Source: an uncultured Poribacteria bacterium (GTDB lineage: Bacteria > Poribacteria > WGA-4E > WGA-3G). From it: a stretch of DNA of 64,000 nucleotides. The notes beneath the pieces were generated by a model. The model ran no database searches, was not told the origin of the DNA, and saw only the letters and a list, made by a program, of their open reading frames with translations. The stretch spans positions 6,302,845 to 6,366,844 of the forward strand of contig OX639973.1 in assembly GCA_951828385.1 (NCBI GenBank). The letters run 5' to 3'. The translations under genes and the position numbers were made by a program. Positions within the stretch are counted from its first letter, which is position 1; each line of letters begins with the position of its first letter. Below are positions 24,905 to 57,995 of the stretch, piece after piece.

Positions 24905-25070
24905 CACGGTTTCGCTTACAGCATCCAAAGCGTCCGCTTTCTTCCCAAATGGTGTTTGCCTAAGTCCTGTCTTCATTAACCCCAACTTTCGCCTTACTTG
25001 CTGCCTCAATTACGCCTATTCGTAAAAATCTCCTGTTCCGGATTCCTCTTTTCCAAAATAATGCAACTAT

Positions 25071-25098
25071 TTGATACCTTAAATCCGTCACTTATAAG
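25071..25098 (+). promoter_or_regulatory. Possible promoter of the sigma-propeller fusion
   Basis: TTGATA (25071-25076) and TATAAG (25093-25098) with a 16-base spacer lie 33 bases before the start. It is weaker than the other promoters listed. Confidence 0.35.
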
Positions 25099-25131
25099 TT
25101 AAAAGATAGTCCGGTTTTAGAGGTTCTCGCA

Positions 25132-28100
25132 ATGAAACAGAAAAATGCTGAACTCATTCAACAGGTTTTACAAGGCGATCAAGACGCATTCGGTCTCCTT
25201 GTAAAAAAGTATCAGAAAGGCGTTCATGCGCTTGCATGGCGTAAAATCGGCGACTTTCACATTGCTGAGGAAATTACACAAGATGCGTTTCTCAAGGCAT
25301 ATCACAAACTTGATACCTTGAAAAACCACAACTTGTTTGCTGGTTGGCTCTATGTTATTGCAACACGTTTATGTTCCGATTGGCTTCAAAAAAAATCACG
25401 GTCAATAGAGGTCTTAGAGACTGTTGATGTTAGCACAGTGGAGCAAGGGACATATTCCCAATACATGGCAGAAAAACAGGCGACAGAAGCCGATGAAACT
25501 CGTCGCGAAATCGTCAAGAGGCTCCTGCAAAAATTGCCGGAAAGTGAACGAACAGTGATAACACTCTATTACTTTGGGGAGATGACATGCGAAGCCATTG
25601 GCGAATTTCTCGGTGTCTCCGAGAATACCATCAAGAGCCGCCTGAGCCGGGCGCGTAATCGTTTAAAGAAGGAGGAAGACATGCTCCGACAAAACCTCGG
25701 CAGTTTCCAACTGCCGGCTTATCTAACAGAAAACATCATGCAGGAAATTTCGCGTATCAAACCCGCTGTCCCTTCCGCGAATAAACCGGTAGTACCATGG
25801 GGCGCTGCTGCCGCTGCTGTCGTAGTTTTCCTACTCATCGGAGTCGGGACACAATACCTCTCTCGTTTCCAGAAACCGTACAGTTTAAATGCTACCTCGG
25901 AACCGACCGTTGAGCTCATTGAGGCACTCTTTGTCTTAGACTCACCGGCAAAGCCCGCGACTCGGAATCAGGCAGGCAATTCGGCTATCCTCGGTAAGAC
26001 CCCCGGAGCAGCTCAAAAACCGGATGCACCGCTTTTCGCTGCAGTTGCAGCCGACGAAACTGATATCGCAACGCCCAAACCACAATGGATCCAAACGAAG
26101 GGCCCCGAGGGCGGAAGGGTTGTTAGTCTTTTCGCGACAACGCGCCGGGACATCTACGCTGGAACCGCGGCCGGACTCTATAGGCTCGCAGATGGTGAGC
26201 ACAGATGGCAACTTATCACTAGCGATGCCCCGGAGGCATTCACAGTGTATACCCAAATCGGATGGTGGCCGATGACAGAACATCGCAATACCTTGTATTT
26301 TGCCACCAATATAGAAGTATTGGCTTCTCCGGATAGAGGCGAAACTTGGAATACCCTTGGAACGCATCCGAAAAACCTCCCTATTGGTATAGTGATAACG
26401 GATGGAGAGCTTGGTCCTGAAACGGATATCGTCATCTATCTTGCGCTCGCTGACGGAATTTTCCGCTCCGAGGATGGCGGACAATCATGGACACCTCTGA
26501 AGGATGGCTTAGAAAATCGGAAAATACGTGCCCTCGCCGCAGTAGAAAACACGATATTTGCGGGGACAGATGATGGACTTTATCGCCTTAATAGTGATAC
26601 CGGGACATGGGAACGATTAGTTGTTACGCATGCAGACATGCGCGGACAAAAACAGCCTATCCGTGCCTTGGCAGCTGCGAGACATCGACTCTATGTCGCA
26701 GTAGGAAAACAGTTTACGAATCAAGTGGGGCCGGAAGTTAAAGCGACAATGGTAGGTAATGCATGGTGGGCACTTTATCGCTCAACCGATTTGGGCGATA
26801 CGTGGTATGCCGTAGATCTGAGAAAAAAACTGGAGACTAAAAAGAAGTTTAAAGACAGATCTGTGATTGAATTCTCGGTTGTCACGGATATAGAAAATGA
26901 ACATTCCGCTTCTGTGGGACGCTACGTCAAGATATTCGCATCAGAAGGAAAGGTTATCGTGACAGACCTGCAGGAACACTTCTATTCACTTGATACCGGC
27001 GAGACTTGGACCTCCTTGGATTTAAACGACGCGACACGTCAACGAGAACCGCCTCCAGTCGTAATGCTGGACGCAAATACCTTCTACATAGGCGGCAAAA
27101 CTGGCATCCATCGTACAATCGATGGCGGTCAATCGTGGCATCCATTTAACACCGGAATAGTGAGTACAGATGTCACGAATTTAATCGCTGCTAACGGCAG
27201 ACTCTACGCGCAGGCAGCAGATGGCATTGTGAGTTCAACCGATGGTGGTACATCGTGGACACTGCTTTCTATTGGTCCTGGCGATATTACAGCTCTGGCA
27301 AAATTCAATGCTACCGCTTACGCAAGAGAAGAAAAAAAGATGGTCTCACGATTTTATCGCTTCTCCACTGAGGACGACAGATTTATGTTTATTCCCGGAA
27401 TACCCACTTTTGAAAAAGTCACACCAGATGAACAAGCATGGCTAAATAAAAGAAATGTACCTTTTCGAGAGGCACTTACGGAAGAAACTAAGCAGAATTT
27501 CAAGGTAGATAAACCGTTAGACCTCGCGGATTACGATCTTGACAAGTTAAGTGCGGCACTCACGAAGCAGTTCCATGAAATAAATCCAACACTTTCGCTT
27601 GCACGTTCAGGAAACTTTGCTATTAGCGACACAGCGTACTATGTTGAACGCAGGCAGAAACTCTTCAGATGGAAACCCGGCACTGCTAAATGGCATGACA
27701 CCGGATTCGTAAATGAAGGAAAACGGACTCCCACCGGTCGTTCCAATGCCGATACTGATACTTCCGGTTTTTGGATACCTAGCGGTTTAACACTCGCTGC
27801 ATCGGGGCACACCGTTTACGTCGGTACACGGAATGGCGACCTCTTTCAATCATTTGATGAAGCGGATACTTGGAACAAGGTCACGGCGAATCTTCCGTTT
27901 CCTGTTGAGCATTTCAAAATAATCGCTTTCGCTGGCTCAACCGTTTATATAGCAACCGACAAAGGTGTCACATATTCAAGCGATGGCACTCACTGGCACA
28001 AGACAGTCGATGAGGAAGGCAGAGCGATCGTCATAAACAGATTCGCTATGGCTGGCACAACGGTGTACGGCACCACGGATATACACGTACATCCAGAGCG

Positions 28101-28251
28101 ACATGTGTATCAATTGAAAGCCGATTCTAACACGTGGAAACAAGTTACGCCAGAGATCCGAAGTCGTGTCACCTCTCTTGCCGTTGATGGGAAAATGCTT
28201 TATGTGGGAACCATTGGGCGTGGCGTGCTTCGCTTCACACTTGACGAATAG
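25132..28251 (+). CDS. ECF sigma factor fused to a membrane segment and an Asp-box beta-propeller
   Basis: This 1039-residue protein has three parts. Residues 7-90 are sigma region 2 (IAEEITQDAFLKAYHKL, GWLYVIATRLCSDWL). Residues 124-185 are region 4 with its helix-turn-helix (LPESERTVITLYYFGEMTCEAIGEFLGVSENTIKSRLSRAR). A single transmembrane helix follows at about 223-241 (WGAAAAAVVVFLLIGVGTQ). The remainder (about 315-1039) holds repeated Asp-box motifs such as SEDGGQSWTPL, SPDRGETWNTL, STDLGDTWYAV, TIDGGQSWHPF and STDGGTSWTLL. These are BNR/Ycf48/sortilin-like propeller blades, predicted outside the membrane. The layout suggests a one-protein signalling device without a separate anti-sigma factor. 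No frameshift is seen; release by proteolysis is speculation. Confidence 0.9.
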   Translation: MKQKNAELIQQVLQGDQDAFGLLVKKYQKGVHALAWRKIGDFHIAEEITQDAFLKAYHKLDTLKNHNLFAGWLYVIATRLCSDWLQKKSRSIEVLETVDVSTVEQGTYSQYMAEKQATEADETRREIVKRLLQKLPESERTVITLYYFGEMTCEAIGEFLGVSENTIKSRLSRARNRLKKEEDMLRQNLGSFQLPAYLTENIMQEISRIKPAVPSANKPVVPWGAAAAAVVVFLLIGVGTQYLSRFQKPYSLNATSEPTVELIEALFVLDSPAKPATRNQAGNSAILGKTPGAAQKPDAPLFAAVAADETDIATPKPQWIQTKGPEGGRVVSLFATTRRDIYAGTAAGLYRLADGEHRWQLITSDAPEAFTVYTQIGWWPMTEHRNTLYFATNIEVLASPDRGETWNTLGTHPKNLPIGIVITDGELGPETDIVIYLALADGIFRSEDGGQSWTPLKDGLENRKIRALAAVENTIFAGTDDGLYRLNSDTGTWERLVVTHADMRGQKQPIRALAAARHRLYVAVGKQFTNQVGPEVKATMVGNAWWALYRSTDLGDTWYAVDLRKKLETKKKFKDRSVIEFSVVTDIENEHSASVGRYVKIFASEGKVIVTDLQEHFYSLDTGETWTSLDLNDATRQREPPPVVMLDANTFYIGGKTGIHRTIDGGQSWHPFNTGIVSTDVTNLIAANGRLYAQAADGIVSSTDGGTSWTLLSIGPGDITALAKFNATAYAREEKKMVSRFYRFSTEDDRFMFIPGIPTFEKVTPDEQAWLNKRNVPFREALTEETKQNFKVDKPLDLADYDLDKLSAALTKQFHEINPTLSLARSGNFAISDTAYYVERRQKLFRWKPGTAKWHDTGFVNEGKRTPTGRSNADTDTSGFWIPSGLTLAASGHTVYVGTRNGDLFQSFDEADTWNKVTANLPFPVEHFKIIAFAGSTVYIATDKGVTYSSDGTHWHKTVDEEGRAIVINRFAMAGTTVYGTTDIHVHPERHVYQLKADSNTWKQVTPEIRSRVTSLAVDGKMLYVGTIGRGVLRFTLDE

Positions 28252-34013: not shown

Positions 34014-37000
34014 TTAATCATCAGCACGGATTGAAGCACCGAGCAGTTCTTCATCTGAAACAGTTCGGAAACGTCCTTCCGGGTCTTTCAAGACGAGTCT
34101 ACGAAGGTCCGTTGTGATGGCATATAATCCCGGCATCACGAACAGCGTCATCAATGTTGCAACGGCGAGTCCGAAAATGATCGTATACGCCATCGGCATC
34201 CATATAGGCGATTTACCACCGAGACCGATCGCCATCGGAATGAGTCCGAAGATTGTCGTTAATGAGGTGAGAATAATTGGGCGCAGTCGGATGCTGCCGC
34301 CTTTCAGGATCGCATACCATTTGTTATAACCGTTTTCTCGGTACTTGTTGATGAAGTCGATGAGCACAATGGAATCATTCACCACGATCCCTGAGAGCGC
34401 GACAATACCAAACATAGCGACGATGCTAAGTGTCGCATCGGAAAGTAGGAGTCCTACCATCGCACCGATCATACCAAACGGAACAGCAAACATAATGATA
34501 ATCGGTTGTATAAACGACCTGAATTGTGCACCCAATACGACATAGATTAGCAATAGCCCAACAATGAACAACTTCCACAACTCGGAAAAGGATTCTGTAA
34601 TTTCATCAAAAACGCCTCGAAAATCGAGTTGGTATCTTGGGTACAAGGATTCCACATTGGCAAAGGCACTCGTTAACGCCTGATTCACTTCAAAAGGCGT
34701 TGTTTTCTGTCTATCTACCGATGCATAAACCGTAATTGCCCGTTCACCATCGAATCGATGGATATCTGCGTATCCCTTTTCCACCACGATGTCCGCAACA
34801 TCCTTGAGTGGAACAATAGCACCGGTGGGTGTCGCAATCAAGAGATTATTAAGTTCAGCAAGATTTGTAAGTGCGTCTTCCTCGTATTTGACGATGACAT
34901 TAATCGCCTCGTCTGCTTCACGATAGGTTGTAACTTTAGCCCCGTCAATCGCTGTCCGAACGGTTTGTGCAACCTGAAACGTCGTTAATCCATATTGATA
35001 TGCTTTCTCCTGATTCAAGTAGATGTGCAGTTCAGATTTTCCGATGCTGAAGTCATCTCGGATATCGTAAACGCCATCTATCTGAGATAAGGTTGTCTTA
35101 AGAACCCCAGCGAGTTCAATCAGATTCTCAAATCTCGGTCCTTTTACTTTGACTCGCACATCTGCTACTTGTGGGGCACCGCCTTCCTGTGTGACAAAAC
35201 TCAGCCGCTCAATTCCACTAATTGTGGCGGTTTTCGTCCGTAGTTCTGCGATGATCTCATCTACACCTCGGGTGCGTTCTTGCTTTGGTGTGAGCTCGAC
35301 GATGACCTCCCCTAAATTTGAGCCGTAGGTAACACTTCTTCTGACTAAACCTGACATAAATGTGTGTAAACCGACATTGCTGACGACCGCATCAACTTCA
35401 GTTGATGGAAGTCTTTTAGCCATCTCTTCAATTTGGACAATGACTTCTGTTGTTTCCTGTATTCCGTAGGAAGGTGGCATCTCGGCTTTGACATAAAATT
35501 GTGGGAACTCTTCACCAGGGAAGAGTTCCTTGTCAAGAACAAAAAATGCCCCGATGCAGGCAACCAATCCGAAGAAGAGGACACTACCTACAAACGCATA
35601 TCGGTATCGAATGGTGATTTTCAGGATTCTAACATATCGGTTCCGAATTAATTCAAAAAACATGGCAAACCACACGAAAAAGCCGACAATTCGGACACCG
35701 AGGGTGAAACCCCTCGGAGACTCGGTTCGGAGGTTTTCAAGCCTACTGCGTCCTGTGCGAATTTTCGGTCTTCCCCATTCAGCGATGTGTGCAGGTAAAA
35801 TTACGAAGACTTCAAAAAGAGATGCTATCAACACCAGAATCGCCATAACCGGCACGATCCGCATAAACTGTCCAGTAACACCAGACATAAACATCAACGG
35901 TCCAAAAGCACAGATTGTCGTCAAGCTTGCCGCTACAACGGGCCAACCGACCTCTTCTGCACCGCGGATAGCGGCAACTTTTGGAGATATTCCAGACTCA
36001 ATATGCCGATAGATATTTTCTATGACAACAATAGCATCATCAACGACGATCCCTACGACTAAAATAAGCCCAAATAGGGCAACACCATTTAGCGTATAAC
36101 CCGCAATGGACATAAACCAAAATGTTGCCATGAAGGCAACTGGTATGCCGAGTGCCGCAAATAAGGCATTCCGCCATCCAATAAAGAGAAGGAGCATTAG
36201 CACAACAAGCACCAAACCGAAAAAGGCATTTGTTTCAAGAATTCCCAATCGTTCTTTGAGAACAACGGAATAGTCATTAACAACCGTCAACTCAGCACCT
36301 TCAGGGAGATCCGTTCTCCGATTGTCGACTAATTCTCGAAGTTTAGCAACTAATGCAATTGTGTTTCCCTCAGTCTTCTTTTGCACACTCAGGCTAATCG
36401 AAGGTTGTCCATCAATTCGCGATAGCGTTCGCACCGCCTCGTAGGTGTCAGAGATCGTTGCAACATCTTTCAGACGGAGAAGTGTACCTATTGGCTGAAC
36501 AGTGATGAGAGTTTCGCCAATAGTGTCCACATCGGTGAATTCCCCCATCGTTCGGATCATGAATTCTGTGCCGCCCAGTTCCATTGTGCCGGCGGGGAGA
36601 TTCAAGTTGTTTGTTCCCAGCGCAGTAATGACCGCTGAAATTGGGAGTCGATACGCCTTCAATTGATCCGGGTTCACCTCAATCCATATTTCCCTCTCAC
36701 GGAGCCCTGCCATTCGGACAGAGGCAATGTTTTTGATGTCCGAGATCTCATTTTTGAGATTTTCAGCAATATCCCGCATCTGCGTTTCCCCAATATTTCC
36801 ACCTACAACAATCGTCAAAATAGGAAAACCAAATGAGGTATCAAATTCTTGGACCCTCGGATCACCTAAAATCTCCTCTGGCAACTCATTTACCTGCTCA
36901 ACAGTGGTGCGTAGGTTTTCAAGTTCCTTGTCAAAATCCCGGTCGCTTATCTCCTCGAAATCGACAAAGATAACAGAACGCCCCTCTGAAGAGGTGGAAA

Positions 37001-37244
37001 ACAAGAGGTCAACTTTGTTGACGTTCTCCTCAATCGCATCTTCAATAGGAGCAGTGACAAGCTTTTCAACTTCCTCTGGGGACGCTCCCGGATAGAGTGT
37101 TGACACAACTGCGCTCTGTACGGAGACTTCTGGGGTGAGTTCCCGCGGTAGGTGCATCCATGCGTACAACCCAAAAACGATGATGATCATCATCAACATG
37201 TTCGCTAAGACAGGATTGTTTACGGATATCTTCGGGATGGACAT
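34014..37244 (-). CDS. RND efflux permease, AcrB/HAE1-like (copy 2 of a tandem pair)
   Basis: This 1076-residue protein has twelve transmembrane segments and two large periplasmic loops. The proton-relay pair Asp-Asp is present in LILVVGIVVDDAIVVIENI. The start NPVLANMLMMIIIVFGLYAW and GASPEEVEKLVTAPIEDAI are typical of hydrophobe/amphiphile RND pumps. It closely resembles the upstream gene at 37360 along its whole length, so the pair arose by duplication. No membrane-fusion (HlyD-type) or TolC-type gene is adjacent, which is unusual for this class. The substrate is unknown. Confidence 0.93.
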   Translation of the reverse strand: MSIPKISVNNPVLANMLMMIIIVFGLYAWMHLPRELTPEVSVQSAVVSTLYPGASPEEVEKLVTAPIEDAIEENVNKVDLLFSTSSEGRSVIFVDFEEISDRDFDKELENLRTTVEQVNELPEEILGDPRVQEFDTSFGFPILTIVVGGNIGETQMRDIAENLKNEISDIKNIASVRMAGLREREIWIEVNPDQLKAYRLPISAVITALGTNNLNLPAGTMELGGTEFMIRTMGEFTDVDTIGETLITVQPIGTLLRLKDVATISDTYEAVRTLSRIDGQPSISLSVQKKTEGNTIALVAKLRELVDNRRTDLPEGAELTVVNDYSVVLKERLGILETNAFFGLVLVVLMLLLFIGWRNALFAALGIPVAFMATFWFMSIAGYTLNGVALFGLILVVGIVVDDAIVVIENIYRHIESGISPKVAAIRGAEEVGWPVVAASLTTICAFGPLMFMSGVTGQFMRIVPVMAILVLIASLFEVFVILPAHIAEWGRPKIRTGRSRLENLRTESPRGFTLGVRIVGFFVWFAMFFELIRNRYVRILKITIRYRYAFVGSVLFFGLVACIGAFFVLDKELFPGEEFPQFYVKAEMPPSYGIQETTEVIVQIEEMAKRLPSTEVDAVVSNVGLHTFMSGLVRRSVTYGSNLGEVIVELTPKQERTRGVDEIIAELRTKTATISGIERLSFVTQEGGAPQVADVRVKVKGPRFENLIELAGVLKTTLSQIDGVYDIRDDFSIGKSELHIYLNQEKAYQYGLTTFQVAQTVRTAIDGAKVTTYREADEAINVIVKYEEDALTNLAELNNLLIATPTGAIVPLKDVADIVVEKGYADIHRFDGERAITVYASVDRQKTTPFEVNQALTSAFANVESLYPRYQLDFRGVFDEITESFSELWKLFIVGLLLIYVVLGAQFRSFIQPIIIMFAVPFGMIGAMVGLLLSDATLSIVAMFGIVALSGIVVNDSIVLIDFINKYRENGYNKWYAILKGGSIRLRPIILTSLTTIFGLIPMAIGLGGKSPIWMPMAYTIIFGLAVATLMTLFVMPGLYAITTDLRRLVLKDPEGRFRTVSDEELLGASIRADD

Positions 37245-37323
37245 GGTAATCGGATTCTCCTGTGTCGGATTTCGGATTTAGGGTTAACCCGAAAATATTC
37301 GTCTACAAGGAGCAAAAGTGTAT

Positions 37324-37349
37324 AAGGCGAGGTCAGAAAACCTCGCCTT
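37324..37349. repeat. Palindromic repeat AAGGCGAGGT/ACCTCGCCTT between the RND genes
   Basis: A perfect 10-bp stem with a 6-base loop is the same unit as at 7984-8005. It could act as a terminator between the two pump genes, but the flanking T runs are poor. Confidence 0.6.
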
Positions 37350-37359
37350 GTCATTCCAC

Positions 37360-40300
37360 TTAATCGTCAGCCGGGACTGCTTCTCCTAACAGGTCCTCAT
37401 CTGAAACGGTTTGGAACCGTGCCTCCGGATTTCTCAGAACGAGACCGCGTAAGTCTGTTGTAATCGCGTAAAGCGCTGGCATCACAAACAGCGTCATTGT
37501 GGTTGCCAGCGCAAGCCCGAAGATGATTGTATACGCCATCGGCATCCAGATAGGCGATTTACCACCGAGACCGATCGCCATCGGAATGAGTCCGAAAATT
37601 GTCGTCAACGAGGTGAGAATAATCGGACGGAGTCGGATGCTACCACCTTTCAGGATAGCGTACCACTTGTTGTAGCCGCGCTCCCGGTATTTGTTGATGA
37701 AGTCGATGAGCACAATCGAATCATTCACCACAATTCCTGAGAGGGCGACGATGCCAAACATTGCGACGATGCTGAGCGTTGCATTGGAAAGGAGGAGTCC
37801 GACCATGGCACCGATCATACCAAATGGAACAGCAAACATAATGACAACCGGCTGTATAAACGATTTGAATTGTGCACCTAATACGACATAGATGAGCAAT
37901 AACCCGACAATAAACAATTTCCACAACTCCGAAAAAGATTCTATAATCTCATCGAAAACGCCTCGAAAATCGAGTTGGTATCCCGGGTATAGGGATTCAA
38001 CATCAGCAAATGTACGCTTTAACGCCTGAGTCGCTTCAAAAGGCGTTGTTTTCTGTCTATCGACGGAGGCATAAACTGTAATTGCGCGTTCTCCATCGAA
38101 TCGACGGATATCAGAATATCCTTTCTCTTCTGTGATGTCAGCAACATCCTTGAGTGGGACAATAGCACCCATGGGAGTTGCGATTAACAGATTGTTGAGT
38201 TCTGCGAGATTTTTTAGGGTATCTTCCTCGTATTTGACCACAACATCAATTGCCTCATCCGCTTCACGGTAGGTAGTGGCTTTAGCACCTTCAATAGCAG
38301 TCCTGACGGTTTGGGCAATTTGAAATGTTGTTAATCCGTATTGATGTGCTTTCTCCGGTTTCAGATAGATACGGAGTTCAGATTTGCCGATACGAAAGTC
38401 GTCTTGAATATCGTAAACACCGTCCATCTGATGGAGTCTTTCTTTAAGCACATCAGCAAGTGCTATAAGTTGATTGAACTGCGGTCCCTTTACTTTAACG
38501 TCCACGTCTTGTCCTTGCGGGGGACCCCCTTCTGGTACAACAAAATTCAATTCCTCAATCCCACTAATTGTTGCCGTTTCCTGCCGCAGGGCAGCGATGA
38601 TTGCATCCACACCTCGAGTGCGTTCCTGCTTGGGTGTCAGTTCAACAATTAACTCACCGAAATTGGAGCCATAGGTAACACTTTGGGCCATCCCCGCATT
38701 GTATGTATGAATGCCGATGTTACTGACAAGCGCGGCAACTTCGGTTGATGGCAACGTCTTCGCAGCGGCTTCAATCTGCTTGACGACTTCTGATGTCTCC
38801 TGTATCCCATAGGAGGGTGGCATTTCAGCTTGAACGAAGAATTGAGGGAACTCTTCACCGGGGAAGAGTTCCTTGTCAAGAATAAAAAATGCGCCGACGC
38901 ACGCAAAAAGGCCAATCCAGAGGACACTCCCGACAAAGGCGTACCGATGGCGGATGGTTGTTTTCAGGATTCTAACATATCGGCTTCGGATAATGTCAAA
39001 AAACATGCCGAACCACACAAAGAAGCCGGTGGTGCGAACGCCTAAGGTAAAAGCCTCCTGAGATCGGGTGCGTAAGCTCTCAAGTCTGCTACGTCCTTCC
39101 CGATGTTTAGCTTTCCCCCACTCAGAGACGTGGGCAGGTAAAATTACGAAAACTTCAAACAGAGAAGCGATCAACACCAGAATCGCCATGATGGGCACAA
39201 CCCGCATGAACTGACCGGCAGTTCCAGACATGAACATCAGCGGACCAAACGCACAGATCGTTGTCAAACTCGCGGCGAGGACGGGCCATCCGACCTCTTG
39301 CGCACCGCGAATAGCGGCAACTTTCGGAGATTCACCCGCCTCAATGTGCCGATAGATGTTCTCTATGACGACAATCGCATCGTCAACAACAATGCCGACG
39401 ACCAAAATAAGTCCAAACAGGGAGACACCACTTAGCGAATAGCCCGCGATAGACATAAACCAGAAAGTCGCCATGAACGCAACCGGTATACCAAGCGCAG
39501 CAAACAGGGCATTACGCCACCCAATAAAAACAAGTAGCATCAGCACAACAAGCACCAGCCCAAATATAGCGTTCGTTTCCAAGATACCTAACCGTTCTTT
39601 TAAAATGACGGAGTAGTCGTTGACGGCTGTTAATTCAGCACCTTCAGGGAGGTCGCTTTTCCGTTTTTCAACCAATTCCCGAAGCTGAGCAACTAACGCA
39701 ATTGTGTTCCCTTCAGACTTTTTTTGCACACTCAGACTAATGGAGGGTTTGCCATTGGTTCGTGATAAGGTGCGTGCCTCTTCGTAGGTATCGGAAACAG
39801 TCGCAACGTCGCTAAGGCGAAGTGGGGTGCCTGTCGGTTGAACGGCGATAATGGTCGCGCCGATAGTGTCTGGGTTCGCGAATTCGCCCATGGTCCGGAC
39901 CATGAACTCTGTATTGCCGAGTTCCATGGTACCAGCCGGGAGATTCAAATTACTTGCACCGAGTGCCGTGATAACTGTTGCAATCGGAAGTTGATAGGCT
40001 TTCAACCGATCAGGGTTCACTTCAACCCAAATTTCTCTTTCTCGAAGTCCCGCTATGCGGACAGCCGCAATATTTTTGATGTCTAAGATTTCATCCTTTA
40101 AATCTTCGGCGATATCCCGCATCTGGGATTCCGAAATATCTCCGCCCACAACAACGGTCAACATCGGAAAACCGGACGAAACATCGAGTTCTAAAACTTG
40201 TGGATCCTCTAAAATTTCTTCCGGGAGTTCATTCACCTGTTCTATGGCAGTCCGTAAGTTTTCAAGCTCTTTATCGAATTCTCGATCGCTCATCTCTTCA

Positions 40301-40587
40301 AAATCGACAGTGATGACAGATCTACCTTCTGAAGAGTTGGAAAGCATCAAATTGATTTTATTAACATTCTCTTCAATAGCATCTTCAATAGGAGCAGTGA
40401 CAAGTTTTTCAACCTCTTCTGGGGAGGCACCCGGATATAGTGTTGTGACAGTTGCGGTCTGTAATGCGATTTCTGGTGTGAGTTCTCGCGGTAGGTTTAT
40501 CCATGCGTACCCCCCGAAAAGGATAATAATGATCATCAGCATGTTCGCTAAGACGGGGTTGTTTACGGACATTTTCGGAATGGACAT
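37360..40587 (-). CDS. RND efflux permease, AcrB/HAE1-like (copy 1 of a tandem pair)
   Basis: This 1075-residue protein has the same layout and catalytic Asp pair (VVGIVVDDAIVVIEN) as its neighbour. The copies differ most in the periplasmic loops, for instance GGPPQGQDVDVKVKGPQ here against GGAPQVADVRVKVKGPR in the other, consistent with a change of substrate or partner. Membrane segments are almost unchanged. This copy is first in transcription order; a 115-base gap with a palindrome separates it from the second. The 40588-40772 gap upstream holds no recognised promoter. Confidence 0.93.
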   Translation of the reverse strand: MSIPKMSVNNPVLANMLMIIIILFGGYAWINLPRELTPEIALQTATVTTLYPGASPEEVEKLVTAPIEDAIEENVNKINLMLSNSSEGRSVITVDFEEMSDREFDKELENLRTAIEQVNELPEEILEDPQVLELDVSSGFPMLTVVVGGDISESQMRDIAEDLKDEILDIKNIAAVRIAGLREREIWVEVNPDRLKAYQLPIATVITALGASNLNLPAGTMELGNTEFMVRTMGEFANPDTIGATIIAVQPTGTPLRLSDVATVSDTYEEARTLSRTNGKPSISLSVQKKSEGNTIALVAQLRELVEKRKSDLPEGAELTAVNDYSVILKERLGILETNAIFGLVLVVLMLLVFIGWRNALFAALGIPVAFMATFWFMSIAGYSLSGVSLFGLILVVGIVVDDAIVVIENIYRHIEAGESPKVAAIRGAQEVGWPVLAASLTTICAFGPLMFMSGTAGQFMRVVPIMAILVLIASLFEVFVILPAHVSEWGKAKHREGRSRLESLRTRSQEAFTLGVRTTGFFVWFGMFFDIIRSRYVRILKTTIRHRYAFVGSVLWIGLFACVGAFFILDKELFPGEEFPQFFVQAEMPPSYGIQETSEVVKQIEAAAKTLPSTEVAALVSNIGIHTYNAGMAQSVTYGSNFGELIVELTPKQERTRGVDAIIAALRQETATISGIEELNFVVPEGGPPQGQDVDVKVKGPQFNQLIALADVLKERLHQMDGVYDIQDDFRIGKSELRIYLKPEKAHQYGLTTFQIAQTVRTAIEGAKATTYREADEAIDVVVKYEEDTLKNLAELNNLLIATPMGAIVPLKDVADITEEKGYSDIRRFDGERAITVYASVDRQKTTPFEATQALKRTFADVESLYPGYQLDFRGVFDEIIESFSELWKLFIVGLLLIYVVLGAQFKSFIQPVVIMFAVPFGMIGAMVGLLLSNATLSIVAMFGIVALSGIVVNDSIVLIDFINKYRERGYNKWYAILKGGSIRLRPIILTSLTTIFGLIPMAIGLGGKSPIWMPMAYTIIFGLALATTMTLFVMPALYAITTDLRGLVLRNPEARFQTVSDEDLLGEAVPADD

Positions 40588-54489: not shown

Positions 54490-54720
54490 ATCTATAAAAA
54501 CCTATAAAACTCTACACTGTTCTTTGATTTCTGCCATACTTCCTGCTTCAGCGTTTCGTGCCTCTCAAGTGAGGTCTTAGAGAAACTCCACAGGCGTTTT
54601 ACGTCTCCTCGCAACTCGTGGCGACGGTTTGAAGGTCAAGCGGGACATAGATTGATAGCCGCGTTTAGGTCTCTATCGCAGTCAAAGCCACATTCGGAGC
54701 AGTGATAGGTGCGTTGAGAA
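54490..54720 (-). ncRNA. Candidate omega (right-end) RNA of TnpB
   Basis: TnpB systems transcribe a guide RNA from the end of tnpB through the right end of the element into flanking DNA. Here about 145 bases follow the tnpB stop and contain small stems (GCCACGAG..., CCTC-ACTT-GAGG). Location is inferred from family biology; no covariance evidence was available. The guide would begin beyond about 54490 towards lower coordinates. Confidence 0.4.
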
Positions 54721-55727
54721 AGCAGCAAATCTGCTTTTTTCTGTCCGCAGTGGCTACAGGTTTTAGAACTCGCAAAGAACCTATCGGCTTCGTCTACGGG
54801 TATCCCGCGTCTATCTGCTTTGTATTTGAGTTTAGACAGAAATCCGGCAAGTGCTGAATCCGATAAGGCTTTGGCTATCTTTGGGTTCTTGAGCATACCC
54901 GAAATGTTCAGTGTCTCAATACCGATAGCACTCGCTTTGCGAACAATCCGGATTGTCGCTTGGTGGTGAGCGTCTTCACGGATATTCGCGATACGCGCAG
55001 AGACAGCTGATAAGCGTTTTTTCTGCTTGTGCCACTGCTGACTGCCTTTCTGCTTACGCGATAAAGCCCGATTTTCGCGTGCTAACTTGCGTTCATATCG
55101 CTTTAGGGGGCGTGGGTTGTCGTAAATATCGCCATTAGAACAGGTCGCAAGCGTATTGATCCCTACGTCTATGCCGATAGGGTGTCTGTCGTCAAATAGG
55201 ACAGGCTGGTGCTTGTAGTTGTTGCTATCGAGGCGTCTCACCGTGATAGAAGCATACCATTTGTCATTGTGCTTTGACACAACGACCTTGGTGATTTCAC
55301 CTGTCCAGCGCAGTTCCTCACGCATGCGTATCCACCCTATTTTGGGGAGATTGATACGTTTCTTATGGACTTCAACAGTGCCTTCGCCATTATCTGCTTG
55401 GTATGAACATTTACCAGATCGGTTCTTATAGACGGGGAACTTGTTTTGTCCTTGCTTCCAACGGGTTACAGCGTCTCCAAGATTGTGGATAGCATTCTTA
55501 GACGCATTCTGCGACAGGGCTTTACACCAGTCAAACTTATCATACTTGACAGCGTTGAATTCACGCTTTATGTCAATATGACTTCGCCATTCGTCTTGGT
55601 CTAAGCCGACTTTGAAGGACGACAAACCAAAGTTGAAGGCAACACGGGCATAGCCAGCATGTTGAGACATTTGCGTGGATTGCTTGTTATTCGGATTCAG
55701 GGCTATCTTCTGTGTGCGGAGTGCCAA
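54636..55727 (-). CDS. tnpB: TnpB RNA-guided nuclease (OrfB family)
   Basis: This 363-residue protein has the RuvC catalytic residues D187 (GIDVGINTLA), E271 (IGIETLNISGM) and D353 (CDRDLNAAINL). The zinc ribbon is C324/C327 and C343/C346 (CSHCGQK, CSECG). All are present, so nuclease activity is expected. TnpB cuts DNA guided by the element's omega RNA and helps retain the element. It overlaps the 3' end of tnpA by 41 bases. Confidence 0.93.
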   Translation of the reverse strand: MALRTQKIALNPNNKQSTQMSQHAGYARVAFNFGLSSFKVGLDQDEWRSHIDIKREFNAVKYDKFDWCKALSQNASKNAIHNLGDAVTRWKQGQNKFPVYKNRSGKCSYQADNGEGTVEVHKKRINLPKIGWIRMREELRWTGEITKVVVSKHNDKWYASITVRRLDSNNYKHQPVLFDDRHPIGIDVGINTLATCSNGDIYDNPRPLKRYERKLARENRALSRKQKGSQQWHKQKKRLSAVSARIANIREDAHHQATIRIVRKASAIGIETLNISGMLKNPKIAKALSDSALAGFLSKLKYKADRRGIPVDEADRFFASSKTCSHCGQKKADLLLSQRTYHCSECGFDCDRDLNAAINLCPA

Positions 55728-56358
55728 AATGTAGTTCCAATCCCTGTTTTTCTTCGGAGACGATCTTCTCTATTTCCCGAGCCATTTTCTTGGATTTATG
55801 AGAACGTCGTCCGTAAAGTTTCGCACAAAATACAGTCATGATTTCCATTACATCTTGTGTGAGTTCTTCCTCAAAAGAAGGCTGCTCACCTTTGTTGATA
55901 ATGACAACCTCTATACCTTTGAGTTCACAGATACGAAAAACGATCTCTGCACCAAAGCGAAGGAGTCTGTCCTTATGTGTGATAACCAGACGCGACATTT
56001 GACCCTGCACCAGTAACTCAAGGAGGCGATGTAAGCCTTTCTTATGGTAATTCATGCCACTGCCGAAGTCTCTTATGATTTCAGTCTGCCACCCATTCTT
56101 ATTGCAAAACGCTTCAAGGACGGCATGCTGACGTTCTAAATCTTCCTTTTGATCCGAACTCGAGACGCGGGCATAAGCAATCGTCGGAGAGGACGAATCA
56201 TTGACACCAAGAAGTTCTGCTAAATCATACATACGTTGACCGCCGGGCGTCCGGTGAGAAGGCATCATCTTACCTTCCATTTCCCAGTTCCGAAGTGCCT
56301 GAACGGACACACCTAAGAGTTTAGCAGCTTCGCCAATCTTAACAAATCTGTTATTCAT
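55687..56358 (-). CDS. tnpA: IS607-family serine recombinase TnpA
   Basis: 223 residues from ATG 56358. A MerR-like helix-turn-helix (VKIGEAAKLLGVSVQALRNWEMEGK) is followed by the resolvase catalytic domain with the nucleophile Ser in YARVSSSDQKEDLERQ. Conserved Arg positions follow (THKDRLLRFG). A start 12 codons upstream would lie inside the promoter, so it is rejected. The -10 box ends six bases before the ATG, implying a leaderless transcript. Confidence 0.93.
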   Translation of the reverse strand: MNNRFVKIGEAAKLLGVSVQALRNWEMEGKMMPSHRTPGGQRMYDLAELLGVNDSSSPTIAYARVSSSDQKEDLERQHAVLEAFCNKNGWQTEIIRDFGSGMNYHKKGLHRLLELLVQGQMSRLVITHKDRLLRFGAEIVFRICELKGIEVVIINKGEQPSFEEELTQDVMEIMTVFCAKLYGRRSHKSKKMAREIEKIVSEEKQGLELHFGTPHTEDSPESE

Positions 56359-56364
56359 ACATAT

Positions 56365-56394
56365 ATTATAGCAGAAAAATAAAAGGTTTGTCAA
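56365..56394 (-). promoter_or_regulatory. Promoter of the IS607 tnpA gene
   Basis: On the minus strand consensus TTGACA (56394-56389), 18 bases and TATAAT (56370-56365), with the ATG at 56358. Confidence 0.7.
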
Positions 56395-56578: not shown

Positions 56579-57627
56579 CTACTCAAAAACATTTTCGATG
56601 TGGAGTGATTGAGCCATCTTCTGATTTTCGGTCTCTAATTTTTCACGACTCGCGATAACGCAAATCGAGGCTTTATCGTTGTTTGCCTCCAAAGTTTCGA
56701 GCAGCGCTCGTTTGACCGCCTTGGGTGTTGCGCGTCGGAGTTGTGCGTATCTTTCTTCGATGGTTTCTCGTGTTTGCCCAGTGAGGTAGTGTGTGAGAGC
56801 ATCGGTTGAGGCTTGACCGGGGCGGACTGTTTTTTGATAATCCGACGCTGTTGCAATAATCGCTCTATCAATGTCTGTCTGCGTCCACTCTACCTGTTTG
56901 ATATAGTCAGCGGTCTCTGCGAAAACATTGAGCGTCCGATCAATGTGTGGGTCAAAATGTGAACCTTGATAGATTAAGGATTCCAATGGGTTATATGAAA
57001 AAAACAGTTGTAGGCATTGCCTTTGAGCCGGATTTCGGGCAACATGTAATCAAACGTTAGAATATGTGAACCGATGGTTAAGAGGACTGAATCTATGTGC
57101 GAGTAGTATGGTGCTGGCATCACTTGTATGCAGTGCGCTATCTGAATAGGAACCGCCAATCCTTCGCGTGGTGGCGTATCAAAAGATTTAAAGCCTATTG
57201 GTGCTGCCGTTATCGGTGCGTCACGCATGTTGTTGATCCATTCTGCAAACTGCCCTTGAATCACCGCAAACGCTGCATCGGAACCGGTAAAACTGGCGGT
57301 CACACGACCTCGCACCAACAAGAAATCTCGTATCTGTTCGATGTGATCGCTAAGTTCTTCATAAGATTCATCAAAACGCTTGAGCAACATTTCACTCATG
57401 CGGAATTCGGGCAGCCCGAAGACGGTTTCTGAGAGATGTATCAGCCGTGCACCGCTCTGTTGATGTGCAAGTTCTATTGCCACTGCTCGCAATTCATCAA
57501 TGGGTGTGATGGCTTTCACTTCAAAGCCGTGAAGGTGTTGACCTGCTGAAAGGTTAACGGGTGGATGTTGGGAATCCGTGGTGTCTTGTCGGGATGCGTT
57601 GCGATCAATATTGCCTTTTGAATTCAT
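56579..57627 (-). pseudogene. M16C (presequence protease-like) metallopeptidase pseudogene
   Basis: From ATG 57627 (GGAGGTC site) the translation starts with the PreP-like entry AGQHLHGFEVKAITPIDELR and GARLIHLS. It then jumps to the C-terminal half (LPEFRMSEMLLKRFDESYEEL, ending IRLKGNAYNCFF), with the zinc-binding HxxEH region missing. At a run of seven T near 57000 the frame shifts; the other frame continues SYNPLESLIYQGSHFDPHID and VEWTQTDIDRAIIATASD. A large in-frame deletion plus a homopolymer frameshift leave a non-functional relic. Confidence 0.85.
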
Positions 57628-57724
57628 CTTGACCTCCAAGTTTTTGTATTTTAGGAATGCAAAATGGTTTCGGTCTGAGAGAAAGACAATTGCCTGCAGA
57701 CCGAAGTTGTCCAGACATATAGTA

Positions 57725-57766
57725 AAACTCATTATATCAATGATACATCATTGATATAATGAGTTT
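57725..57766. repeat. Near-perfect 42-base palindrome
   Basis: AAACTCATTATATCAATGAT and its exact complement flank the two bases AC. This 20-bp perfect inverted repeat is the longest tight palindrome noticed in the window. It lies upstream of the peptidase relic. No T run marks a terminator. Confidence 0.8.
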
Positions 57767-57888: not shown

Positions 57889-57995
57889 GCTTTAGGCATA
57901 TAAAATGCACCCATTTGCAGCTCAATTATTAATAACGCGCTTTAGAGCCGAAAAGGGTGCATGATTTTGTGAAAATTATAAAAACGATGGAGGTT

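Follow-up and report, generated by a model that had tools for sequence, protein, structure and literature searches.

How would a sigma factor act when it is joined, in one reading frame, to a membrane helix and a propeller of several hundred residues, and is such a frame real? The gene that raises this question lies within the window, by which we mean the whole 64,000-nucleotide stretch analyzed, from a poribacterial genome of 6.66 Mb in a single contig. The frame, read from the sequence, is open from ATG to stop and encodes 1039 residues (Table 1). A frameshift or an assembly fusion could mimic such an architecture; both are ruled out in practice, as orthologs are intact in independent assemblies and the same genome holds 75 long sigma fusions. 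None of the 26 loci checked in other assemblies contains an internal stop, and the closest orthologs are 54-71% identical to the window protein. The sequence-only reading, which had proposed one intact frame carrying sigma regions 2 and 4 and a transmembrane helix, is upheld on each of these points by the intact relatives, Pfam and hydropathy.

Table 1. Features of the sigma fusion gene and its upstream region, in window coordinates
Feature	Position	Strand	Evidence
ECF-type promoter: -35 box ATAATGCAACTA (25058-25069), 13-nt spacer, -10 box ATCCGTCACTTA (25083-25094)	25058-25094	+	Family PWM score 13.7
Probable ribosome-binding site GAGG, 9 bases 5' of ATG	25120-25123	+	Sequence reading
Whole gene: ECF sigma, TM, Asp-box propeller fusion, 1039 aa	25132-28251	+	ORF, Pfam, orthologs
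Sigma region 2, residues 23-90	25198-25401	+	Pfam Sigma70_r2, 1.6e-12; aligns with SigW and E. coli sigma-E
Sigma region 4, residues 126-180; -35 recognition residues K168, S169, S172	25507-25671	+	Pfam Sigma70_r4_2 / Sigma70_r4; covariation with -35 bases
Cytoplasmic linker helix, conserved, residues 190-212, LTENIMQEIxRxKP	25699-25767	+	Ungapped and conserved across 54 TM paralogs
Transmembrane helix, residues about 220-238	25789-25845	+	Hydropathy peak 2.41; gap-free position in 57 paralogs
Juxtamembrane segment outside membrane, residues 239-285, QYLxRFQKPYSLxAxSExTVELIDA...	25846-25986	+	Conserved across fusions; predicted disordered
Asp-box double-propeller domain, residues 316-1039	26077-28248	+	AlphaFold pLDDT about 80-92 in most blocks; Foldseek ranks 1-15 all GH74

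With sigma regions 2 and 4 only, separated by fewer than 50 residues, the window protein meets the definition of an ECF sigma factor. The Sigma70_r4_2 match spans residues 126-178 (8.6e-15), and the nearest solved sigmas are SigW of Bacillus (5.7e-29) and E. coli sigma-E. The TM helix is the sole stretch of transmembrane-strength hydrophobicity in the protein; positive residues flank it on both sides, and the charge bias is not decisive for topology. AlphaFold models the sigma part poorly (mean pLDDT 65.3), places the linker helix at residues 196-208 with low confidence, and predicts a disordered tether at 187-315. Pfam found no zf-HC2 domain in the protein, residues 186 to 240 contain no Cys, and past the sigma regions only weak Asp-box families were matched (Sortilin-Vps10, PSII_BNR and BNR).

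Structure prediction of the outer domain, which the earlier reading had recommended, gave a confident beta-propeller over most of residues 316-1039. The claim of more than 700 residues of BNR/Ycf48-like repeats stands as to size and repeat type (a 723-aa Asp-box domain), but the domain is closer to the twin propellers of GH74 than to Ycf48. GH74 xyloglucanases are the leading Foldseek matches (E 2.4e-24 to 3.8e-21), VIA-align against GH74 entries gave Z scores of 21-23 over 557-589 residues (single WD40 propellers tie at shorter length), and a profile search with the propeller matched GH74 at 2.6e-19. By these three methods the window protein satisfies the GH74 fold, an Asp-box double propeller, and it is similar in length to the xyloglucanases.

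This GH74-like fold favors a reading in which the sigma part is a relict or serves only for anchoring, the main role of the protein being that of a GH74-type glycosidase or of a binding protein at the surface or in the periplasm; the exported-type homologs of sensor domains that adjoin fusion genes could be taken in the same sense. However, an Ala of the window protein aligns with the position that we take to be the first GH74 catalytic Asp (chain 2cn3 has Ala there). The alignment is low-scoring and the second Asp is not aligned; the family of the window propeller also has no Asp where the profile meets the first position. From this alignment the first catalytic Asp appears to be missing, and with caution we interpret the domain as a binding domain and not a glycosidase. 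Unlike the xyloglucanases, the domain is fused behind a sigma factor and a TM helix. As the sigma core positions are invariant across dozens of paralogs, and the DNA-contact residues covary with the promoter (see below), we find a relict sigma scarcely credible.

Two things lay beyond the sequence-only reading: the promoter listed in Table 1, and membership of a very large family. The genome contains 102 Sigma70_r2 matches; frames near 1000 aa in length and tandem clusters account for many of them, and a census of the stretches around these matches found 75 sigma ORFs longer than 300 aa, the window gene included. A TM helix is present in about 57 of the 75 (55 with a stricter hydropathy limit). 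In 54 TM paralogs the first 257 residues are nearly ungapped, running through the sigma part, the LTENIMQEI linker, the TM helix and the QYLxRFQKPYSLxA motif, and conservation of this module drops only past residue 285 or so. Across fusions with unrelated sensors, the share of the most frequent residue is 0.73-0.53 within residues 239-285, and 0.25-0.4 further on. The sensors found behind the module comprise Asp-box and WD40 propellers, Kelch, Reg_prop, PD40, LRR, CarboxypepD_reg, M16-like and unassigned parts. At least four switches between Asp-box and WD40 sensors are required on the sigma tree, against a shuffled average of 13.7; sensors have therefore been exchanged, though not freely. One tandem array (L097-L099, genome 1522860-1573145) holds about twelve sigma-TM fusions, mostly with WD40 repeats, two of which have nearly identical sigma parts (1551950 and 1557254).

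Absence of the fusion from related genomes had been named in advance as a refuting outcome; a search for the same architecture instead found it in paralogs and in other poribacterial genomes. The first 278 residues were matched in all 85 poribacterial genomes searched. Within the genus of the window, most of the best matches fall below 1e-120 and extend over the module; several poribacterial lineages gave sigma-level matches only, near 1e-21. In a genome of another class (G022), long fusions with frames of 597-1310 aa align past the sigma part, and three further genomes (G014, G021 and G038) have mainly short sigmas. Reciprocal best matches link 27 fusions of G009 to this genome. Named relatives in a contig scan were all Candidatus Poribacteria; the scan reaches close relatives only, and we do not claim that the TM module is absent outside Poribacteria. 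A tblastn search of plasmids with the sigma-TM module returned only ordinary ECFs, below 60% identity (about 28-36% among the matches listed).

The window gene stands alone, with a HisA-type gene upstream and an EF-Tu-like GTPase gene downstream on the other strand. An ECF usually, though not necessarily, has its cognate anti-sigma gene next to it. No anti-sigma gene was found by Pfam among the immediate neighbors of the window gene, and the seven zf-HC2 anti-sigma domains that are the only matches in the genome adjoin short ECF genes. Pfam also found no FecR-type periplasmic domain after the TM helix (Asp-box families only), and no TonB receptor or outer-membrane receptor gene occurs among the adjacent genes examined. 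The earlier suggestion that sensing and transcription parts reside in one membrane-spanning chain is thus supported by the sequence and the family, with no adjoining anti-sigma gene. The nearest siblings, three receptors at 307-323 kb of the genome, form a conserved cluster with a pair of ABC-2 permeases and a 433-aa protein that is itself conserved; G001 and G006 retain this arrangement, and G009 does so in part. The window gene is a dispersed paralog of this cluster. Of 97 neighbors of fusion genes across the family, 83 share the strand of the fusion and 14 fall into a single ABC-2 permease family; many of the rest have N termini of the exported type, and some are relatives of the fused sensor. 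Elsewhere in the window, on the minus strand, are two AcrB-type RND transporters side by side, 1076 and 1075 aa long (34014-40587), and a pair formed by a MerR-resolvase and an OrfB/TnpB gene with a Cas12f-like TNB domain, resembling IS607-type elements (54636-56394).

The window promoter ends 37 nt 5' of the ATG and carries both hallmarks of an ECF promoter, AAC in the -35 box (TGCAAC) and CGT in the -10 box (CGTC). Its PWM score compares with a maximum of 5.6 in the reverse-complement control, and one of 300 shuffles reached 11.0. Upstream of the fusion genes the words TTATGCA (32 versus 2 in reverse controls) and GCGTCAC (20 versus 0) are enriched, and the two-box model has the consensus ATTATGCAaC-N14/15-..CGTCACTA, or in full ATTATGCAaC-(12 or 13 between 12-mers)-tcGCGTCAcTA. 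Such a promoter precedes 54 of the 75 fusion genes of this genome (score above 9 or just under), the PWM having been trained on the same 75 genes that it first scores. In other poribacterial genomes 125 of 151 genes score above 9, and a chance origin is ruled out by the reverse-strand control, where none of 151 does. Promoter-class sites also precede neighbor genes with exported-type N termini. The variant found at the window gene, AATGCAAC-N18/19-GTC, has nine genomic sites, versus six for the reversed pattern; four of the nine belong to the window gene and its three cluster siblings. A second family promoter in the window (57929-57965, minus strand, score 15.1) precedes an ORF of 252 aa that has no assignment (56974-57732), after which comes a C-terminal fragment of PreP. 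Near-identical 29-nt matches to TATGCAACTCTCTgCGtTTTATCGGTATC at genome positions 718218, 855075, 2116078, 4548070, 4960962 and 6062121 are probably part of a repeated element and not promoters.

If each sigma reads the promoter of its own gene, its DNA-contact residues must covary with the bases of that promoter. The strongest residue-base pair overall joins residue 168 to the tenth -35 base: all 43 cases of K168 have C at that base, and where residue 168 is T, A, N or S the base is G. N169 pairs mostly with G at -35 base 8; in the -10 box, the partner of M83 is A and that of Q86 or E86 is mostly T. Residues 168, 169 and 172 align to R171, S172 and F175 of sigma-E, which we take to be contacts of the -35 box. 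In this genome the sigma-4 contacts outperformed all 20,000 random residue sets against the -35 box (p<5e-5), sigma-2 against the -10 box gave p=2.5e-4, and the crossed controls were null (0.91 and 0.86). A second set comprised 71 non-redundant genes of other genomes; there the five rules were obeyed in 67 of 68, 65 of 66, 56 of 67, 69 of 70 and 64 of 67 cases; sigma-4 with the -35 box again gave p<5e-5 (crossed control 0.997), and sigma-2 with the -10 box was weak (0.07). These statistics ignore relatedness; the crossed controls, which share the same relatedness, lie at p=0.65-0.997 over both sets. The window protein obeys four of the five rules, the exception being Q86 with C where T is usual. 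An earlier test of specificity positions in one species pair (p about 0.02) was suggestive and is superseded by the promoter covariation.

Because the -35 bases covary with the expected sigma-4 contact residues, we conclude that selection acts on the sigma half for recognition of promoters, that in the window protein it almost certainly works and reads its own promoter, and that the anchored sigmas of this genome appear to read the promoters in front of their own genes. Autoregulation as expected of an ECF is in this way met by an upstream promoter and residue-base covariation, that is, by sequence alone and not by experiment. The upstream promoters might instead be read by another sigma, such as a shared ECF, with the fused sigmas acting elsewhere. 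All the promoters belong to one consensus family, so cross-talk is likely, and the promoters of the four window-type siblings are nearly the same; yet the covariation links each sigma to its own promoter at the expected contacts and the crossed controls are null, leaving this alternative highly unlikely. A residue-to-base code for ECFs in general has already been published, as cited in PMC8103513.

The architecture has precedents. Among known ECFs are some with regulatory extensions at the C terminus, some fused to a TM segment and, in planctomycetes, some fused to WD40 repeats (PMC8999054, PMC8567305); IutY, ECF52 and ECF57 are examples. The window protein satisfies the plan of IutY of Pseudomonas putida (ECF243), in which a cytosolic ECF sigma, a single TM helix and a large periplasmic domain form one chain; IutY has been described as unique and is freed by Prc and RseP (PMC5411451, PMC8999054; release, PMC5411451). 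In IutY the periplasmic part is an anti-sigma domain that receives its input from a TonB receptor, whereas the window protein has an Asp-box double propeller and about 57 paralogs. ECF52 SCO4117 and the ECF48 and ECF53 groups of Actinobacteria likewise join an ECF to a C-terminal TM extension and outer domain, that of SCO4117 being carbohydrate-binding, with proteolysis proposed (PMC8999054); unlike the window protein, these groups carry a zinc-finger domain. ECF57 and the planctomycete fusions are also ECF paralogs with C-terminal propeller repeats (PMC8999054, PMC8567305). Many WD40 paralogs of this genome share the latter trait and are close to them in kind, whereas the window protein has Asp-box repeats and no WD40 by Pfam. 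The cysteine pair between sigma-2 and sigma-4 reported for ECF57 is not conserved in the fusions of this genome; C81 is nearly invariant, and position 153 is C in 19 of 75. SigI/RsgI of Clostridium thermocellum is a paralogous, RseP-cut transmembrane sigma-control set that senses different substrates, but there the sensor sits on a separate anti-sigma protein (PMC12203970). The hybrid two-component sensors BT4663 and BT4673 (PDB 4a2l and 3ott, Foldseek matches) are transmembrane regulators with a propeller-type periplasmic sensor; their output is not a sigma, and they superpose poorly with the window propeller.

The best account of the window gene product is an autoregulated, single-chain transmembrane sigma receptor with a propeller sensor outside, freed by proteolysis, and we consider it probable on account of the IutY plan, the proteases encoded in the genome (one strong M50/RseP match and three S41, Prc-type, matches) and the juxtamembrane segment. 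In the proposed mechanism, the one TM helix would keep the ECF sigma at the inner membrane, on its cytoplasmic side, with the double propeller outside as sensor. When a signal arrives, Prc-like and RseP-like proteases would trim the outer part and cut the TM helix, and the freed sigma would bind RNA polymerase and fire promoters of the TGCAAC-N-CGTC type, its own among them, giving positive autoregulation. The sigma-linker-TM-juxtamembrane module has been copied dozens of times in the phylum and joined to different sensors while promoter specificity diversified. The architecture, family size, shared module, promoter and covariation are computed results; topology, sensing, the ligand or signal, proteolytic release and activation are inferred, with no expression, localization or cleavage data. 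The juxtamembrane segment, some 45 residues that are conserved, predicted to be disordered and placed outside the membrane, is a candidate protease-recognition zone, and fits a cleavage zone common to the family. Alternatively, the sigma could be active while tethered, like ToxR and CadC, which are one-component regulators bound to the membrane, with the signal shifting its conformation or freeing the linker and RNA polymerase recruited at the membrane. The conserved linker helix, kept in some TM-less paralogs, could then be an intramolecular clamp, and there is no evidence that the window protein is cleaved. However, IutY, the closest tested protein, is activated by Prc and RseP cleavage (PMC5411451), and a disordered segment common to unrelated sensors resembles a protease substrate more than a signal lever, so we regard activity in the tethered state as unlikely and retain proteolytic release as the preferred explanation.

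As far as the literature searched shows, three elements are new: the Asp-box/GH74-like sensor, a phylum-wide exchangeable sigma-TM module with about 57 copies in one genome, and evidence for own-promoter reading; our search found no paper on sigma fusions in Poribacteria. Of TM-sensor ECF fusions a handful of examples are known; here such fusions form a main regulatory class in a phylum of sponge symbionts, which seem to sense their surroundings via dozens of one-piece receptors reaching from outside to gene. It is possible, and we propose it only tentatively, that Poribacteria run a receptor system of their own, with one exchangeable module, their own sensors and largely private promoters, in place of much two-component and sigma/anti-sigma signaling in sensing of the sponge matrix. 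With sigma residues and promoter bases linked by a readable code, targets can be predicted in an uncultured phylum, and the many related sigma-promoter pairs are usable for synthetic circuits. GH74 is reported as abundant in Poribacteria in PMC6081418 (citing Kamke 2013); our results suggest that poribacterial GH74 genes deserve re-examination, because some may be sensors and not enzymes.

Tethering is not universal in the family, since 18 of the 75 fusions have no TM helix, four of them with a propeller. The partners in TM-less fusions are mostly of cytosolic type, namely FtsZ, DnaE, DnaN, methyltransferase and AhpC-like proteins. One very odd frame of 1423 aa (L119:2311-6582, genome 4711810-4716081) combines an ECF sigma with FtsZ and DNA polymerase III alpha (PHP, NTPase and finger), and is kept in G009 at 79%; a separate DNA_pol3_alpha frame lies at 235415. 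Further sigma fusions to cytosolic machinery are found on the minus strand at L127:2758-4125, L130:10784-12511 and L130:2975-4201. A second FtsZ-type fusion is among these L127/L130 loci, and the sigma fusions to the DnaN beta clamp comprise one shortened copy and a longer relative, grouped by BLAST.
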